From an uncultured Roseicyclus sp. (lineage in GTDB: Bacteria > Pseudomonadota > Alphaproteobacteria > Rhodobacterales > Rhodobacteraceae), in assembly GCA_947494975.1 (NCBI GenBank), contig CANLXA010000004.1, positions 124,001-188,000 on the forward strand: 64,000 bases of DNA, in the 5' to 3' direction. Positions 5,670-47,431 of this stretch are shown piece after piece; within the stretch, counting starts at the first letter, position 1; the number at the start of each line of letters is the position of its first letter. Under the pieces are notes generated by a model. The model ran no database searches and was not told the DNA's origin. It saw only the letters and a program-made list of their open reading frames with translations. Made by a program: the position numbers and the translations under genes.

Positions 5670-5891
5670 TCAGGCCGCGAAGATCATCGGTGTGATCATT
5701 CCGGCTTGGCTCCAGGCCCGTTTGATCGGGCCCTTATCGGTCAGGCTCCCCGACTTGATTGCCGCCAGGGCCCATGTCAGCGTGGCCAGCGGCAATGTCG
5801 CCAGGAAGATGATCCCGAAGTAGATCATGAACTCCGTTTTCGGCGGCTTGGTGCGTGCCGGAACGGGGCTGTTCGAGGTCATGTCACTCAT
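5670..5891 (-). CDS. pufQ: PufQ, bacteriochlorophyll/puf assembly factor
   Basis: 73 residues with one transmembrane segment ([20 protein letters not shown]) and a C-terminus [16 protein letters not shown] typical of PufQ. PufQ is implicated in delivering bacteriochlorophyll intermediates for pigment-protein assembly. The ATG at 5891 is chosen because an AGGAGGAGGAG run lies just upstream; the ATG overlaps the bchZ stop by 8 bp, pointing to translational coupling. A second ATG at 5882 is also possible. An upstream start at 5918 lies inside bchZ and is not needed. Confidence 0.88.
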
Positions 5892-7368
5892 TTGATTTCT
5901 CCTCCTCCTCGAAATCAAAACCGGCAGGCGCCAGGCGCTTGACGGTGTCTTTCATCACCCGCTCCGCCCCGCCTTCGAGCGCGGCCTTTTCGGCGGCGTC
6001 GCGAAGGGTCTTGGCGGCAGAGATGCGGGTGAGAATGGGGTGTTCGGCCACGATCCGATCCAGAAGCGCCTGGGCGTCCGGCTCCCACGGGAAATCGCGG
6101 CGCAGGGTGGCGGGTGTGGCGGCGGCGCTGTCCATCTCGCTGCCCAGCGGCAGAATATGGAACAGCGCATCGAAAAGGCCATTACAGACCTCTTGCAGCA
6201 TATAGGTGGCCCCGGCGTAGCCCATGAATGGCGTGCCGGTGGCGCGGCGGATCGCGGCGCCCGGGAAGCTCGCCGGGATGAAGGCGGGCTTGGGGCCGTG
6301 ACCGGCCGCCATTTCGGCCAGATACATCTTTTCGTTGATCGACCCCATCAGGATCAGCGGGCGTTTTTCGCTGATCATGGCGCGGACCTGTTCATTGTCC
6401 GTCTTTTTGCCCGCCACGCGGGCGACGGCGAAGGCGCAGGGGAAGCCGAGGTCATCTTCCAGGAACTTGCGGATGCCGCGCGCGTAGGTCTCATTCGCGA
6501 CGATGCCGAAGGAGGCGGTTGCGAAGAAATCCTGCGTGACAGACCGCCAGAGGTCCCACACCGGCTTGATGGTGGAGTGCTTTTCCTGCTCGATGAACGG
6601 TTCGGGGTCGAGGCCCGTCAACTCACCCAGCTTCCGCAGGAATTTCGTGGTCGATTCCACGCCAATCGGCGCTTGCAGGTAAGGCTTGGCGAGGACTTCG
6701 CACAGGCCACGGCCGAACTCGCGATACATGCAGATGTTGACGTCGGCATTCACCAGATCGCGCATCTCCGCCACATGGGCGCCCAGCGGCATAACCATGT
6801 TCACCTCACATCCGATGCCTTCGACGAGGCGGCGGATTTCGGCGAGGTCGGAGGGCATGTTGAAGGTGCCATACATCGGCCCGAGGATGTTGACGCGGGG
6901 GGCGCTGCCCTCTTCACGCTTCTTCTCGGGCGGCATACGACCCTTGGTCATGCCGAATTCGGTGAAGATCCAGGTCATCGCGCGGTCGGCGCTTTCCCAT
7001 TGGTCTTCGTCGATGGTGCGCGGCAGGAAGCGCTGGATGTTGGTGCCCATGGGCGTGACGCCGCCGCCGATCATCTCGGCAATCGACCCGGTGACGACCA
7101 CGGCTGGAAGCGCAGGGTCAAGCGTGCCCCAGGCGCGTTTCATCGCGCCTTCGGTGCCATCACGGCCAAGCTCTTCCTCGCCGAGGCCGGTGACAACGAT
7201 GGGTAGCTCATGCGGCGGCAGGCCGTCGGTGTAATGCAGGACGGAGGTGACGGGCAGGTTTTCGCATCCGACCGGACCGTCGATGATGCATTGCAGGCCT
7301 TTGACCGCGGTGAAGGCGTAAACGCTTCCCCAATAGCCGCCTGCCCTGTCATGATCCTGGATCAGCAT
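5884..7368 (-). CDS. bchZ: Chlorophyllide a reductase subunit Z
   Basis: BchZ and BchY form the catalytic component of chlorophyllide a oxidoreductase, a nitrogenase-like enzyme that reduces the B ring to the bacteriochlorin level with electrons from BchX. The 494-residue product begins [20 protein letters not shown] and contains [10 protein letters not shown] near residue 35 and the [10 protein letters not shown] region typical of the NifK/BchZ fold. The ATG overlaps the bchY stop by 7 bp. The C-terminal tail EEEEKSNE overlaps the pufQ start. Confidence 0.95.
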
Positions 7369-8933
7369 TTCACACCACCATTCGCGGCCATGCGGGCCTT
7401 TTCGGCGCGTTCCAGCTTTTTCAGGTTCTGGGCGCGGAAATCGGGGCGCAGGTTCGGCGCGCCTTCCCAGACGCCTGCCGTATCTTCATGGCCGACGCCT
7501 TCGAAGAATTCGCGCATATGCGCCATGCGGTCCTTGTTGGCCATGGCGGCGTTGACGACTTGGCCGAGAGACCCGGCCCCGGCGGGGCCCATGAGGGGAC
7601 GCGCGGAGATGAGGTTGGTGAAGTAGAGCGACGGGATGCCAAGCTCCTTGCCCTTTTGCACAACGGGGGTGGTGCCGATGGCGAGGTCGGGCTGGATCGC
7701 CTCCATCGCGGCGCAGTCGTCTTCCAGCGAGGCGCGGAATTTCACTTTCACGCCCCGGGATTCGAGCCATTCCAGATCGGGGGCGGACCAAGGCGTCTTG
7801 GCGCAGGCTGTGCCCACGTAAGGAACGTCCGCGCCGGATTCGATCAGCAGGCGCGCGACGAGAAGCTCGGATCCTTCATAGCCCGACAGCGTGATCGTGC
7901 CCTTGATCGGAACCGACGCAAGCGCGCCCTTGATCGCCGGCAGGAAGGCGTTTTGCGCCTCGGCCACCTTTTCGGACGGAACGTTGTAAGCCTCGCCAAT
8001 CGCGGCGAGCCATGCGGCGGTGCCATCGTGGCCCACGGGCGCGGACCCAACCACGGTACGACCCGCAGCTTGGAATTCACGCACAGCGCTGGTGTAAAAG
8101 GGGTGGATCGCGGCCACCACCTCACTGTCCAACGCGGAATAGAGCTCACGCCACTCACGGCAGGGAACGACCGGACCTGCCGCCAGACCGAGTGGCGCGA
8201 GCATCCCTGCGATTCCCAAGGGATCCGCAGGGAACATTTCGCCCAACAGCGTAACTGTTGGACGGTCTGAAACGCCCGAGACAGGAGCCATAACTGGACC
8301 GGCCTCCACTTCCTGTCGGGCATAATTGAGCATCGCCCCGGCGAGGACGTCTTTCGCCTCCGCATGGGTCGGTACTCCGAAGCCCGGAACGTCGATACCG
8401 ACGATCCGGACCCCATTGATTTCGTCGGGCAGAAGCCGCAACGGAACTCCGGACGCCGTGGGCACGCAGAGGTTGGTGACCACAATGGCGTCGTAACGCT
8501 CGGGGTCGGCCATCTCGTGCACGGCGTCTCTGATGTCTTCAAACAACTTGCCGGTGACAAGCGATTCAGAATTGAACGGGACGTAGCCCACCGACCGGCG
8601 GGCGCCGTAGAAATGGGATACGAAGGTCAGGCCGTAGACGCAGCAGGCCGATCCGCTCAGGATCGTACCAACGCGGCGCATCCTGAGGCCCACGCGGAGC
8701 GAGCCGAAGGCAGGGCACATCGATTGCGGCTTGTCGTGCGGGCCCTGCGGGTAGTCCTTGGCGAATTGATCCAAAATCTCGGATTTGCCGGCGCTGCGCG
8801 CGGCGGCCTCCATCTCGCCCGCACCGGCGTGACAGCCCATACCGTCACCACCGGAGGGCGCTCCTGTTTCGATGGCCTCACCTTCGATCACCTCCACCTC
8901 AGCGGTGGCGTCGTATGTCATCTCGGCGCTCAC
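7362..8933 (-). CDS. bchY: Chlorophyllide a reductase subunit Y
   Basis: Partner of BchZ in the NifDK-like catalytic component. The 523-residue protein has an acidic N-terminal region, then the family core with [19 protein letters not shown] and the Cys-bearing [18 protein letters not shown], where cluster-ligating cysteines are expected. The start is the GTG at 8933, which overlaps the stop of the preceding 63-codon gene by 4 bp (GTGA). No good Shine-Dalgarno precedes the GTG, so bchY translation probably depends on ribosomes finishing that small gene. Confidence 0.94.
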
Positions 8934-9121
8934 GACTTGGCTACCGCTTTTGCCATGCGCTTCTCAACCGCATCGAGGAATGCGATGCTATTGGCGCAAT
9001 CCTCCTTGGCCTCAGCGGTCTTTCGGCGCGATTCCATGGCCGTTTCCAACATCTGCTTGTTTTCGGCGAGCACCCTGTCGTTGAACGTCCGCATCTTCTG
9101 GAGTTCGTCACGAATCGTCAT
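8930..9121 (-). CDS. Unrecognised 63-residue protein between bchX and bchY
   Basis: I do not recognise this product. It begins [20 protein letters not shown] and is rich in Lys, Glu, Arg and Ala with no hydrophobic span, consistent with a soluble, mostly helical, possibly coiled-coil protein. It overlaps bchX by 14 bp and bchY by 4 bp. Its ATG follows a 10-nt Shine-Dalgarno (9123-9132) fully complementary to the expected 16S 3' end, the best in the window. This indicates real translation. Possible roles are an accessory factor of chlorophyllide reductase or a translational-coupling leader for bchY; neither is shown. Confidence 0.8.
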   Translation of the reverse strand: MTIRDELQKMRTFNDRVLAENKQMLETAMESRRKTAEAKEDCANSIAFLDAVEKRMAKAVAKS

Positions 9122-10112
9122 AGATCACCTCCAACGATTCCTTCACGACTGCGTTGCTTCCGCGCATGTCGGTATCTGTGGCAGGTTCCAGAACCACACC
9201 AGCGCCGGTATCGGACCCGTCAAACAGCGCGAGCAATTCATCTTGTGTCAGTGCGGCAGGCCGCATGGGCGGGGCGACGGCGACGTTGTCGCCCAGGGCC
9301 GCAAACAAGCCGCCCCACTGGCTCTCGCCGGTGCCGACAATCTGGTAATTCGCGGATTTCTTGCGCAGATCGTCGTCTTGCGGGATCGACGCGAGGACAG
9401 GGATATCGACGGATTTCGCAAAGGCCTGTGCCTCGCCCGAGCCATCGTCCTTGTTGATGACAAGCCCGGCGACGCCGACATTGCCGCCCATCTTGCGGAA
9501 ATACTCGACGGCGGAGCAGACGTTGTTGGCGACGTAGAGCGACTGAAGATCATTGGAGGCGACCAGGATCACCTTCTGCGCCATGTCACGGGCGATCGGC
9601 AGGCCGAAGCCGCCACACACAACATCCCCCAGAAAATCAAGCAGGACGTAGTCGAAGTCCCAATCGTGGAAGCCGAGTTTCTCTAGTAACTCGAAGCCGT
9701 GAATAATGCCCCGACCTCCACAACCGCGACCCACTTCAGGGCCACCAAGCTCCATGGCGAAAACGCCACCGCGCTTGAAGCAGACATCACCGATTTTTAC
9801 CTCTTCTCCAGCGAGCTTCTTCTGGGTCGAGGTCTCGATAATGGTAGGGCAAGCCTTGCCCCCGAATAATAGCGAAGTTGTGTCCGACTTGGGGTCACAT
9901 CCGATCAAAAGTACGCGCTTGCCCTGTTCCGCCATCATGTGGCTGAGATTGGCCAGCGTGAAAGATTTGCCGATGCCGCCCTTGCCGTAAATCGCGATGA
10001 TCTGGGTCTTCTTGGTCGGCTCGCCCTGAGGCACTTCCAAGGTGGGTTCGGCGGCTTCGTCGCGCAGCGCGGCGTCGTAATCCCGCAGGTTCGGGGGCGT
10101 GTCGAGGCTCAT
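9108..10112 (-). CDS. bchX: Chlorophyllide a reductase iron protein subunit X
   Basis: BchX is the NifH-like ATPase that passes electrons to BchYZ. The product of 334 residues has the P-loop GKGGIGKS at about residues 43-50 and two glycine-flanked cysteines (GRGCGGRG and DVVCGGFG) that would hold the inter-subunit 4Fe-4S cluster. The start is taken as the ATG at 10112, which overlaps the bchC stop as ATGA and gives the family-like N-terminus [20 protein letters not shown]; an in-frame ATG 36 bp upstream lies inside bchC. Its 3' end overlaps the small downstream gene by 14 bp. Confidence 0.95.
9123..9132 (-). promoter_or_regulatory. Perfect 10-nt Shine-Dalgarno for the small bchX-bchY gene
   Basis: On the minus strand the sequence reads GGAGGTGATC, fully complementary to the conserved 16S rRNA 3' tail (GATCACCTCC). 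The GGAGG core ends six bases before the ATG at 9121. It lies inside the last codons of bchX. Confidence 0.8.
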
Positions 10113-11050
10113 GCAGCGGTCTCCCAGTTCAGGATCATCTTCAGGCACGCGGCATCTTCGAACGCGGTCCGATATGCCTCGGCCGCTTGGTCCGCCGGGC
10201 GGGTATGGGTAATCAGGCCATCAAGGCTCAGGGCGCCGTGGTCGATCAGGTCGCGGGTCGCCACAAGGTCATCCCGGGTCCATTCGGCGGCAATGCGCAG
10301 GCGCGCCTCGCGCATGAAGGCGGGCGGGAAGGCGAAGGACAGCGGCTCCGGATAGAACCCCGCCAGGACAATCTCACCACCCTTGGCCAGACGCCCGATC
10401 AGGGTATTGAGAAGGTCGGACTGGCCACTTGCATCATAGATACAGCCATAGTCGCGACGCTCATCCGCATCGGGGTGAACAACCTCGTATCCCTCGGCGC
10501 CTTTGGCGCGATCAGCATCGATCTCCCAGACGGTGGGGGCTTTGCCGCCCGCCGCCAGGGTAAGCCGCGCCAGAAGACGGCCAAAGACACCATGGCCGAC
10601 GATCAGATCCGGCAGACATTTGTCGAGCCCGGCCATGGCATGACGCGCCGTTGCCGCAAGCGCCAGAAGAGCGCCTTCAGCCTTCAGGGCAGCGTCGATT
10701 TTCACCACCCGGTCAGCGGATGTCACAAGGCGGTTGGATGCACCTCCAAAGAGACCCTTCACATCGCCATAACAATTCGCGCCCGGCACGAACACGCGGT
10801 CACCCGGCTTGAAACCGGTGCCAACGGGGGCATCGACCACCTCGCCCGCGGCCTCATATCCCGGCACCAGCGGATATCCCATCCCCGGAAAGGGCGGCAT
10901 GTCACCGGACCAGAAGAGCTTCTCCGTACCGGTGGAAATCCCGGAATAATGAATGTCGATCACCAGATCCGTGTCACCTGGATCGCTGAGCGCGACGCGT
11001 CCGAGAGACAACGTCCGGGGCGCTTCCAATATGACAGCCGTGCTATGCAA
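10109..11050 (-). CDS. bchC: Bacteriochlorophyllide a dehydrogenase
   Basis: BchC oxidises the 3-hydroxyethyl group of the bacteriochlorin macrocycle to the 3-acetyl group of bacteriochlorophyll a. The sequence shows the medium-chain dehydrogenase pattern: [15 protein letters not shown] and [14 protein letters not shown] near the N-terminus, then a nucleotide-binding half ([13 protein letters not shown]). The TTG at 11050 is preferred because AGGGAG lies about nine bases upstream and the protein then starts at the family-like [10 protein letters not shown]. An in-frame GTG at 11077 lacks a Shine-Dalgarno. Two PpsR/CrtJ-type palindromes lie upstream. The stop overlaps the bchX ATG. Confidence 0.92.
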
Positions 11051-11132
11051 ACTGGCCAACTCCCTCTCGGCGAACACTGCCGCGGCGGAGCTGGATTATC
11101 GAGAATCCCCGGCTGCGCGGCAGCATCTTGAG

Positions 11133-46607: not shown

Positions 46608-47431
46608 CGCTTGGCATCCCAACTGGCCGACGCGTGTTTGCGGGTATTATGCTCCAGCATCATCCCGATCAGGAGCGCCGCCAACGTGAAGTAGAGCGGA
46701 TAGGAGCCGCTGGTGACATGGGGGAAGTAGTTGACGAAGATATGCCCCCGCGTCTGATCGATGATGTGGAAGAGCGGATTCCATTCGAACATCGGCAACA
46801 TGATGGATGGCATCATGTTGGCCACGAACATCTTGCCCGAGAAGATCATGTTGGCGCGGATATAGATCATTGAAACGATCTGCACGACGTCCGGCGCCCA
46901 AGGGCGCACGGCCATGAAGATGATCCCAAACACCACACCCGATCCCCAGGCCAGAAGGAACATCCGAAACGCGCCTTCCCAATTGTGGATCTCCACCGGT
47001 TCGATCATCACGTGGATCAGAAGGACGATGCACAGCATCGAAATGGTCTGGATATAGAGCACCGACATCGCCGTAGAGACGATCGAAACCAGCGTGTTCA
47101 TCGGCCCGTGCTGCATCATCGGGCTGGTCGGGCCCTCGGCCATCATCAGGCCGCGTACGGTTTGGATATGTGTCAGGTACAGGAAGATGCCCGACATGAG
47201 GTACATCATGAAGTTGCCGCGGATCGCGGCGCCCCGTGTGCCGAGCACACTGAACATGAAGTAGAAGGCGGCGATGAAAATGAGGCTTTGCGCAATCGAG
47301 AGCAGGATCGATAGCACCGCATTGCCGTGGTTCTTGCGCACCTTCCGCGCGGTGGCGTGAAAGGTAACCTCGAAGAAGCTGAACACCAGCGCGAGATTTG
47401 AGCGCGATCTGGAGCCGGAATGTTCGAACAT
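46604..47431 (-). CDS. ABC-2 type polysaccharide export permease
   Basis: A protein of 275 residues with about six transmembrane helices (from about residue 40 to 265) and the pattern of ABC-2/KpsM-like permeases that export capsule or O-antigen glycans with an ATPase partner. The ATG at 47431 fits; the longer frame at 47491 adds only a basic, unrelated N-terminus. No ATPase gene is adjacent, so it depends on one elsewhere. It faces cysQ-kdsB, consistent with a role in the neighbouring glycan locus. Confidence 0.82.
   Translation of the reverse strand: MFEHSGSRSRSNLALVFSFFEVTFHATARKVRKNHGNAVLSILLSIAQSLIFIAAFYFMFSVLGTRGAAIRGNFMMYLMSGIFLYLTHIQTVRGLMMAEGPTSPMMQHGPMNTLVSIVSTAMSVLYIQTISMLCIVLLIHVMIEPVEIHNWEGAFRMFLLAWGSGVVFGIIFMAVRPWAPDVVQIVSMIYIRANMIFSGKMFVANMMPSIMLPMFEWNPLFHIIDQTRGHIFVNYFPHVTSGSYPLYFTLAALLIGMMLEHNTRKHASASWDAKR

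Follow-up and report, generated by a model that had tools for sequence, protein, structure and literature searches.

A small open reading frame between bchX and bchY in a Roseicyclus genome and the variably occupied slot that holds it in Rhodobacteraceae

Bacteriochlorophyll a synthesis hinges on BchXYZ, and a small open reading frame (ORF) lodged between bchX and bchY in an uncultured Roseicyclus sp. raises the question of whether this frame is translated and, if so, what it does there. On the minus strand of the 64,000-nt stretch of DNA that was analyzed, here referred to as the window, the genes follow one another head to tail in the order bchC-bchX-small ORF-bchY-bchZ, with overlaps of 4, 14, 4, and 7 nt. 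The frames of bchX (9108..10112) and bchY (7362..8933, with a GTG start) exceed the cut-offs of TIGR02016 and TIGR02015, respectively, and those of bchC (10109-11077) and bchZ (5884-7368) are named by position. A first-pass annotation, made from the letters of the sequence, described a frame of 63 codons overlapping both neighbors, and such a frame is found at 8930-9121 on the minus strand, running from ATG to TGA. Its first 14 nt (9108..9121) lie within the end of bchX, whose stop codon ends at 9108, and this overlap constrains the first residues to MTxx[DE]; at its other end, it shares a GTGA stop/start overlap (8930..8933) with the GTG of bchY at 8933. The coordinates therefore agree with both of the overlaps originally described.

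The same annotation called the product charged, helical, and unlike any subunit of chlorophyllide reductase, and this description holds. AlphaFold, supplied with a two-row alignment, predicted one helix comprising residues 3-62, with a mean pLDDT of 96.2 and a pTM of 0.59. The sequence gave no match to TIGR02015, TIGR02016, PF00142, or PF00148 and none to an NCBIfam or PHROGs family, and no curated Pfam cut-off was reached. The best Pfam candidate, Mod_r, was rejected at 17.6 bits against a cut-off of 30.1, and matches to FadA and DIRP in the Pfam and NCBIfam searches of the small ORFs likewise lay below their cut-offs.

Translation had been argued mainly from the Shine-Dalgarno (SD) sequence GGAGGTGATC at 9123..9132 on the minus strand, the GGAGG of which lies 6 nt from the ATG. 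The imbalance between the two starts is real: calculated with what we take to be the 16S tail, the SD duplex energy is -13.6 kcal/mol for the small ORF versus -3.5 kcal/mol for bchY, the GTG of which has almost no SD sequence. Part of the argument has to be given up, since the SD letters are also bchX coding sequence, specifying Leu-Glu-Val-Ile near the BchX end, and the residues are fixed by BchX; of the 24 junctions outside the family, which have no such ORF, 23 likewise encode SLE[VI] near the BchX end. Nor is GGAGGTGATC unique in the window, because a second exact copy lies at 8886-8895 on the minus strand, inside bchY codons for Val-Glu-Val-Ile; this copy is 38 nt behind the bchY start, and the next 15 codons contain no in-frame start codon. 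The part of the argument that stands is the choice among synonymous codons, to which we return below.

A frame of this kind might be open by chance, as a GC-rich spacer following a coding-constrained SD sequence, with no selected translation. When the 174-nt gap of the window was shuffled, 11% of shuffles still gave a frame that opened with an ATG at the end of bchX and reached the start of bchY. Openness alone is thus weak evidence and, as the SD sequence also lies inside conserved bchX codons, the case rests on comparison. Against a chance frame, the codon-position GC content of the ORF (0.54/0.38/0.75) is gene-like, with bchX at 0.63/0.42/0.73, and a near-identical ORF (98% identity) in the sister genome G010 (L014/L022) differs by a single nonsynonymous change across 138.5 sites, with 2 synonymous changes across 35.5 sites. 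The flanks of this pair have dS values of 0.117 (bchX) and 0.264 (bchY). Since the two genomes diverge unevenly, and little in the vicinity of the junction, the dN/dS signal from the pair is weak, and we regard these changes as modest evidence for constraint.

For a wider comparison, BchX was found in 9 of 13 genomes of the window's genus, in 82 of 198 and 159 of 394 genomes of the family, and in 26 of 385 genomes of the class. From the family, 162 loci were fetched and 160 were scored, after removal of L066 and L094, which lacked bchY; the loci of four further genomes with BchX (G261, G268, G369, and G398) were left out of the survey. Small ORFs occupy 85 of the 160 junctions, 68 are direct bchX-bchY junctions, and 7 have a gap without an ORF, one of which (L134) entered this count only through a bchY match upstream of the bchX end and was not truly scored. 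Two junctions that the script had scored as direct, L033 (b-type, as defined below) and L164 (a-type), were moved to the ORF class. Among gaps of 40-400 nt, 77 of 86 are bridged by a single ORF, compared with 38 expected in shuffles, so that chance alone would bridge many gaps but far fewer than are seen. Outside the family, none of 24 scored junctions was counted as having a small ORF: 17 are direct, 6 have a gap without an ORF, and at L216 an ORF was called by the script only because bchX is duplicated and was not counted. In this outside set, L209 (of 25) belongs to the family and L233 lacks bchY; three direct junctions (L210, L219, and L225) have a short alternative frame without an a, b, or c motif, which was not counted either.

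Conservation in close relatives, which the first-pass annotation had made the touchstone of its proposal, gave an answer that depends on the depth of the comparison. Within the genus it breaks down: of nine bchX-bearing genomes, two have the window ORF, one has a different ORF of the c-type, and six have none, from which it follows that the window ORF is inessential to the enzyme. Across the family, the slot is filled in about half of the scored junctions. The small frames found there suggest that a helper or coupling element of the pathway has been overlooked. No fusion of a small ORF to BchX or BchY was seen among the direct or gap junctions, and a phage collection contained no match to the bchX-ORF-bchY DNA. 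An association with BchE, counted only at an E value below about 1e-190, was considered and dropped (ORF present, 40 with and 33 without BchE; ORF absent or untyped, 31 and 48; Fisher p 0.07).

The most constant property of the occupied slot is its coupling geometry: of the 85 bridged junctions, 75 have a last ORF that shares exactly 4 nt with bchY. This is what would be expected if the frame were a translational bridge only, its openness serving to deliver ribosomes to bchY and thereby to fix the output of that gene, with an idle peptide. The weak SD sequence of bchY fits such a bridge, as does the bchC-bchX junction, where an overlap of exactly 4 nt was also found in 68 of 71 cases (the other three being at -19, -11, and 0), a control in which the start nearest to -4 was chosen, favoring that value. 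However, the 68 direct junctions couple bchX to bchY without any ORF, and a bridge is therefore not needed as such. We consider a bridge with an idle peptide the principal alternative to the reading favored below but a rather doubtful account, for reasons that become apparent when the ORFs are sorted by sequence.

Scripted motif patterns were used to set the kinds of ORF, with those of at least 42 aa that lack an a or b motif assigned to c. Single a-type ORFs (n = 42) have the motif M[FL]DLxxLAxLDxALxxL and often comprise 23-30 aa, some having longer tails with Cys-Pro; this kind includes L148, which was untyped before being retyped. The b-type ORFs (n = 18) contain ARPEQIxRLLRDI, and some start with MCDxC. 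Single c-type ORFs (n = 11), the remainder class, have 44-64 aa. Four junctions have two ORFs, the first being of kind c and the second of kind a in two cases, of kind b in one, and a 13-codon frame in one; 10 short ORFs are untyped and may be chance frames. Kinds a and b match no Pfam or NCBIfam family. They are recognizable across genera with residues kept, which an idle bridge would not predict. When the bchX strand of 202 loci was scanned in all three frames, the slot accounted for 44 of 46 a matches and all 25 b matches, and a b-type profile run against 100 family genomes gave five matches, four at the slot and one weak; kinds a and c were sought inside the fetched loci.

Some of the longer a-type ORFs (L040, L045, L049, L055, L058, L083, L093, L118, L123, L144, L146, L158, and L175) have Cys-Pro-[Phe/His/Val/Met] near their ends, resembling the GCHAG stretch at the start of BchY. 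For these Cys-Pro a-types and the MCDxC b-types, a contact with a metal or tetrapyrrole is possible. Separately, the bchX-bchY gaps of L038, L042, L075, and L138, from several genera, contain a GC-rich palindrome (about GGGGGCCAGCCCCCGGACCCCCGGAG...AAGATGAAG), and a palindrome-like element is also present in the gaps of L070, L182, and L184; at six of these loci (L138 excluded), the element had no Rfam match up to an E value of 0.1. Elsewhere in the window, 46712-46861 on the plus strand matches Rfam RF02645, Ruegeria cis2 sRNA, above the gathering score.

The position of the window ORF directly before a poorly initiated bchY would also suit a leader peptide that senses a signal, such as an amino acid, a pigment intermediate, or oxygen, through ribosome stalling. 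Yet 63 codons are long for a leader, no run of one codon was seen, no Rfam match at gathering scores was obtained here, and sequences as diverse as those in the slot would all need to sense the same signal. We regard such a leader as very improbable.

The codons that encode the SD sequence differ with the kind of ORF that follows. In the family survey, Glu-Val is written GAG GTG in 15 of 15 c-type junctions, 12 of 18 b-type junctions, 5 of 41 a-type junctions, and 7 of 68 direct junctions. All 17 Roseobacter junctions use GAG for Glu, and 8 of the 17 have the pair GAG GTG. The three ORF bearers of the window's genus have GAG GTG, and five of its direct junctions (bchY start at -4 or -1) have GAA; the sixth direct junction, with the bchY start at -14, has GAG GTC. 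Median SD energies follow the same order, at -13.6 kcal/mol for 27 c-type ORFs, -10.5 for b-type ORFs, and -7.2 for a-type ORFs. For bchY, the median is -5.5 kcal/mol behind 23 single c-type ORFs and -6.2 in direct junctions, and a strong SD sequence is hence not common to all slot ORFs, the a-type being much like bchY in direct junctions. Taken together, codon choice and the energies by ORF kind suggest that synonymous codons are selected so as to fit the SD sequence to the start downstream of it, most of all for the c-type. Tests on independent pairs point in the same direction as the codon counts, on too few supported pairs: 8 for the SD codon (median p 0.125) and 11 with an early start as the trait (p 0.625). 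Codon choice that tracks ORF kind would not be expected of chance frames, which we now consider improbable, if marginally less so than a sensing leader. We consider the small ORF of this strain very probably translated, as had been proposed.

Evidence that a c-type product matters as a protein comes from Roseobacter (the genus of G294, to which genomes carrying the R. litoralis and R. ponti ORFs belong). Seventeen of 19 genomes bear bchX, and all 17 have an interposed small ORF, which is a full-length c-type in 16 (13 alone and 3 behind a b-type ORF). In the 17th, L190, a b-type ORF is followed by a c-like frame cut to 29 aa, which keeps its start and still runs into bchY, resembling a decaying member with a surviving bridge; that it still reaches bchY is a point in favor of a bridge with an idle peptide. 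In 12 single ORFs of 57 aa, S24 and L41 are invariant and A13, R16, and I35 near-invariant, the mean BLOSUM62 score is 0.98 in frame versus 0.06 and 0.03 in the shifted frames, and there are no stops in frame versus 21 and 22 in the shifted frames. Such in-frame amino acid selection and fixed length would not be expected if the peptide were idle.

Pairwise rates were calculated for the window pair and for 136 Roseobacter pairs ranked by bchX dS, and the following figures come from the 22 lowest of the 136. Low ORF divergence was found in two pairs, L193/L197 (dN 0.039, dS 0.198; dN/dS near 0.2) and L191/L194 (dN 0.144, dS 0.448; dN/dS near 0.3). In others, the ORF differs more than its flanks, as in L192/L197 (dN 0.73, dS 0.91, versus a flank dS of 0.26-0.29) and L199/L200 (dN 0.60, dS 1.74, versus a flank dS of 0.43-0.59), and ORF divergence is near-unconstrained in L192/L197 as well as in L192/L193 (dN 0.72, dS 0.96). 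Pairs almost without amino acid constraint, together with the great diversity of slot sequences, favor an idle peptide. Because the excess over the flanks extends to synonymous sites, it suggests allele exchange or locally fast change in the Roseobacter ORF. Judged by these alignments, the c-type protein is under selection in Roseobacter and changes quickly.

To what extent the window ORF belongs with these proteins was assessed in several ways. It starts 14 nt before the bchX stop, where c-type ORFs start 11-14 nt before it, and shares their 4-nt overlap with bchY and their length (63 aa, within a range of about 57-64 aa), and its predicted single helix agrees with the putatively helical character of the group; it has neither the a motif (MFDLxxLAxLDxAL) nor the b motif (ARPEQIxRLLRDI). 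By sequence, a search of 41 genomes gave strong matches in its own and the sister genome and weak ones in nine others (best E value, 0.018), and phmmer against 44 slot ORFs returned only L031 (E value, 0.068). In shuffle tests in which the first five residues, constrained by the bchX overlap, were held fixed, 71 of 500 shuffles scored as high as the window ORF against the Roseobacter c-type profile, 97 of 1,000 against a profile of the other 13 non-Roseobacter c-types, and 13 of 1,000 against both training sets together; for L017, from the window's genus, the figure with the Roseobacter profile was 2 of 500. In a leave-one-out test, 7 of 14 c-types, including that of the window, placed within the best 18 of 1,000, and L031, L037, L046, L062, L153, L170, and S190 did not, so that group c may be more than one family. 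Membership of the window ORF in the c-type is therefore suggestive by sequence.

Occupancy of the slot changes repeatedly over the phylogeny. In a FastTree of BchX plus BchY with 175 rows, of which 24 of 172 inner branches are well supported and from which L134 and L187 (the same genome as L130) were left out, a minimum of 38 changes is needed on the best tree to account for the label "no ORF", with 8 of them forced by well-supported branches, and the single c-type label needs at least 12, of which 5 are so forced. L016 and L017 are 99% identical in BchX/BchY and yet differ in ORF presence. It is conceivable, if speculative, that the slot acts as a cassette in which unrelated helical microproteins of kinds a, b, and c (alone or as b-c, c-a, or c-b) are gained, lost, and exchanged, each serving as a clade-specific assembly or regulatory micro-subunit of chlorophyllide a reductase and translated via the SD sequence encoded in bchX. 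Allele exchange would then explain why some c-type ORFs diverge more than their flanks, even at synonymous sites.

The reading that we favor, with moderate confidence, is that the window ORF is translated into a microprotein, varies in its presence among lineages, and in addition conveys ribosomes from bchX to bchY. It would be a genuine small gene in a bchC-X-(ORF)-Y-Z operon and one of several kinds that are gained and lost at this position among Rhodobacteraceae. Ribosomes leaving bchX, or starting at the SD sequence within its end, would translate the small ORF and be handed over to bchY at the GTGA stop/start, and the otherwise 174-nt gap would be kept translated, with bchY coupled to bchX. 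This cis part of the mechanism is drawn from the anatomy, and coupling of bchY by the small ORF seems likely. The product would be a short amphipathic helix synthesized alongside BchX and BchY, and it would most likely bind chlorophyllide a reductase, through either BchX or the BchYZ complex during its formation, and tune or stabilize it. The protein part is drawn from the selection seen in Roseobacter, extended to the window by position; that the product acts on the reductase, which we infer from its position alone, is a tentative proposal that we rate a little below even. An accessory factor of BchXYZ and a coupling leader, both suggested by the first-pass annotation, are not mutually exclusive.

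Genes of this kind have been annotated without comment. Four ORFs listed in RefSeq as hypothetical proteins, all on plasmids, occupy the same slot: WP_158308178.1 (Roseobacter litoralis), WP_169642524.1 (R. ponti), WP_076630660.1 (Tateyamaria omphalii), and WP_259993782.1 (Sulfitobacter sp. S190). Like the window ORF, they start 14 nt before the bchX stop, overlap bchY by 4 nt, and have 57 or 63 aa, but they share no convincing sequence similarity with it. The PLSDB table, which is incomplete, shows no gene for an untyped 37-aa ORF in Thalassococcus sp. S3 or a b-like 76-aa ORF in S. guttiformis. Among the papers found, no title or abstract opening describes a gene between bchX and bchY. In the part of PMC6052148 consulted, bchX, bchY, and bchZ directly follow one another in a list of the photosynthesis genes of Rhodobacteraceae, and no mention of such a gene was found in the part of PMC6739100 consulted. 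If a family-specific microprotein does lie between the subunits, a component may have gone unnoticed in genetic and expression studies of this operon in carrier species, and alterations of the bchX/bchY junction may have exerted polar effects that escaped attention. Junctions with, without, and with exchanged ORFs also form a natural series for testing the roles of small genes inside conserved operons.

Small extra genes are familiar from nitrogenase-type operons. AnfG/VnfG, the delta subunits of alternative nitrogenases, are made in step with the large subunits, as is proposed here for the window product; they are encoded between D and K, and they are larger than the window product, conserved, and part of the enzyme. 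NifI1/NifI2 are regulatory proteins whose small genes lie between nifH and nifD, the equivalent slot, but they are PII-like, whereas the window product is predicted to be one helix. The junction itself resembles that of translationally coupled overlapping genes as described in the portion of a recent review consulted, with a stop/start overlap and a weak SD sequence on the downstream gene (PMC12548453); the difference is that here, the coupling unit would be an exchangeable small gene.
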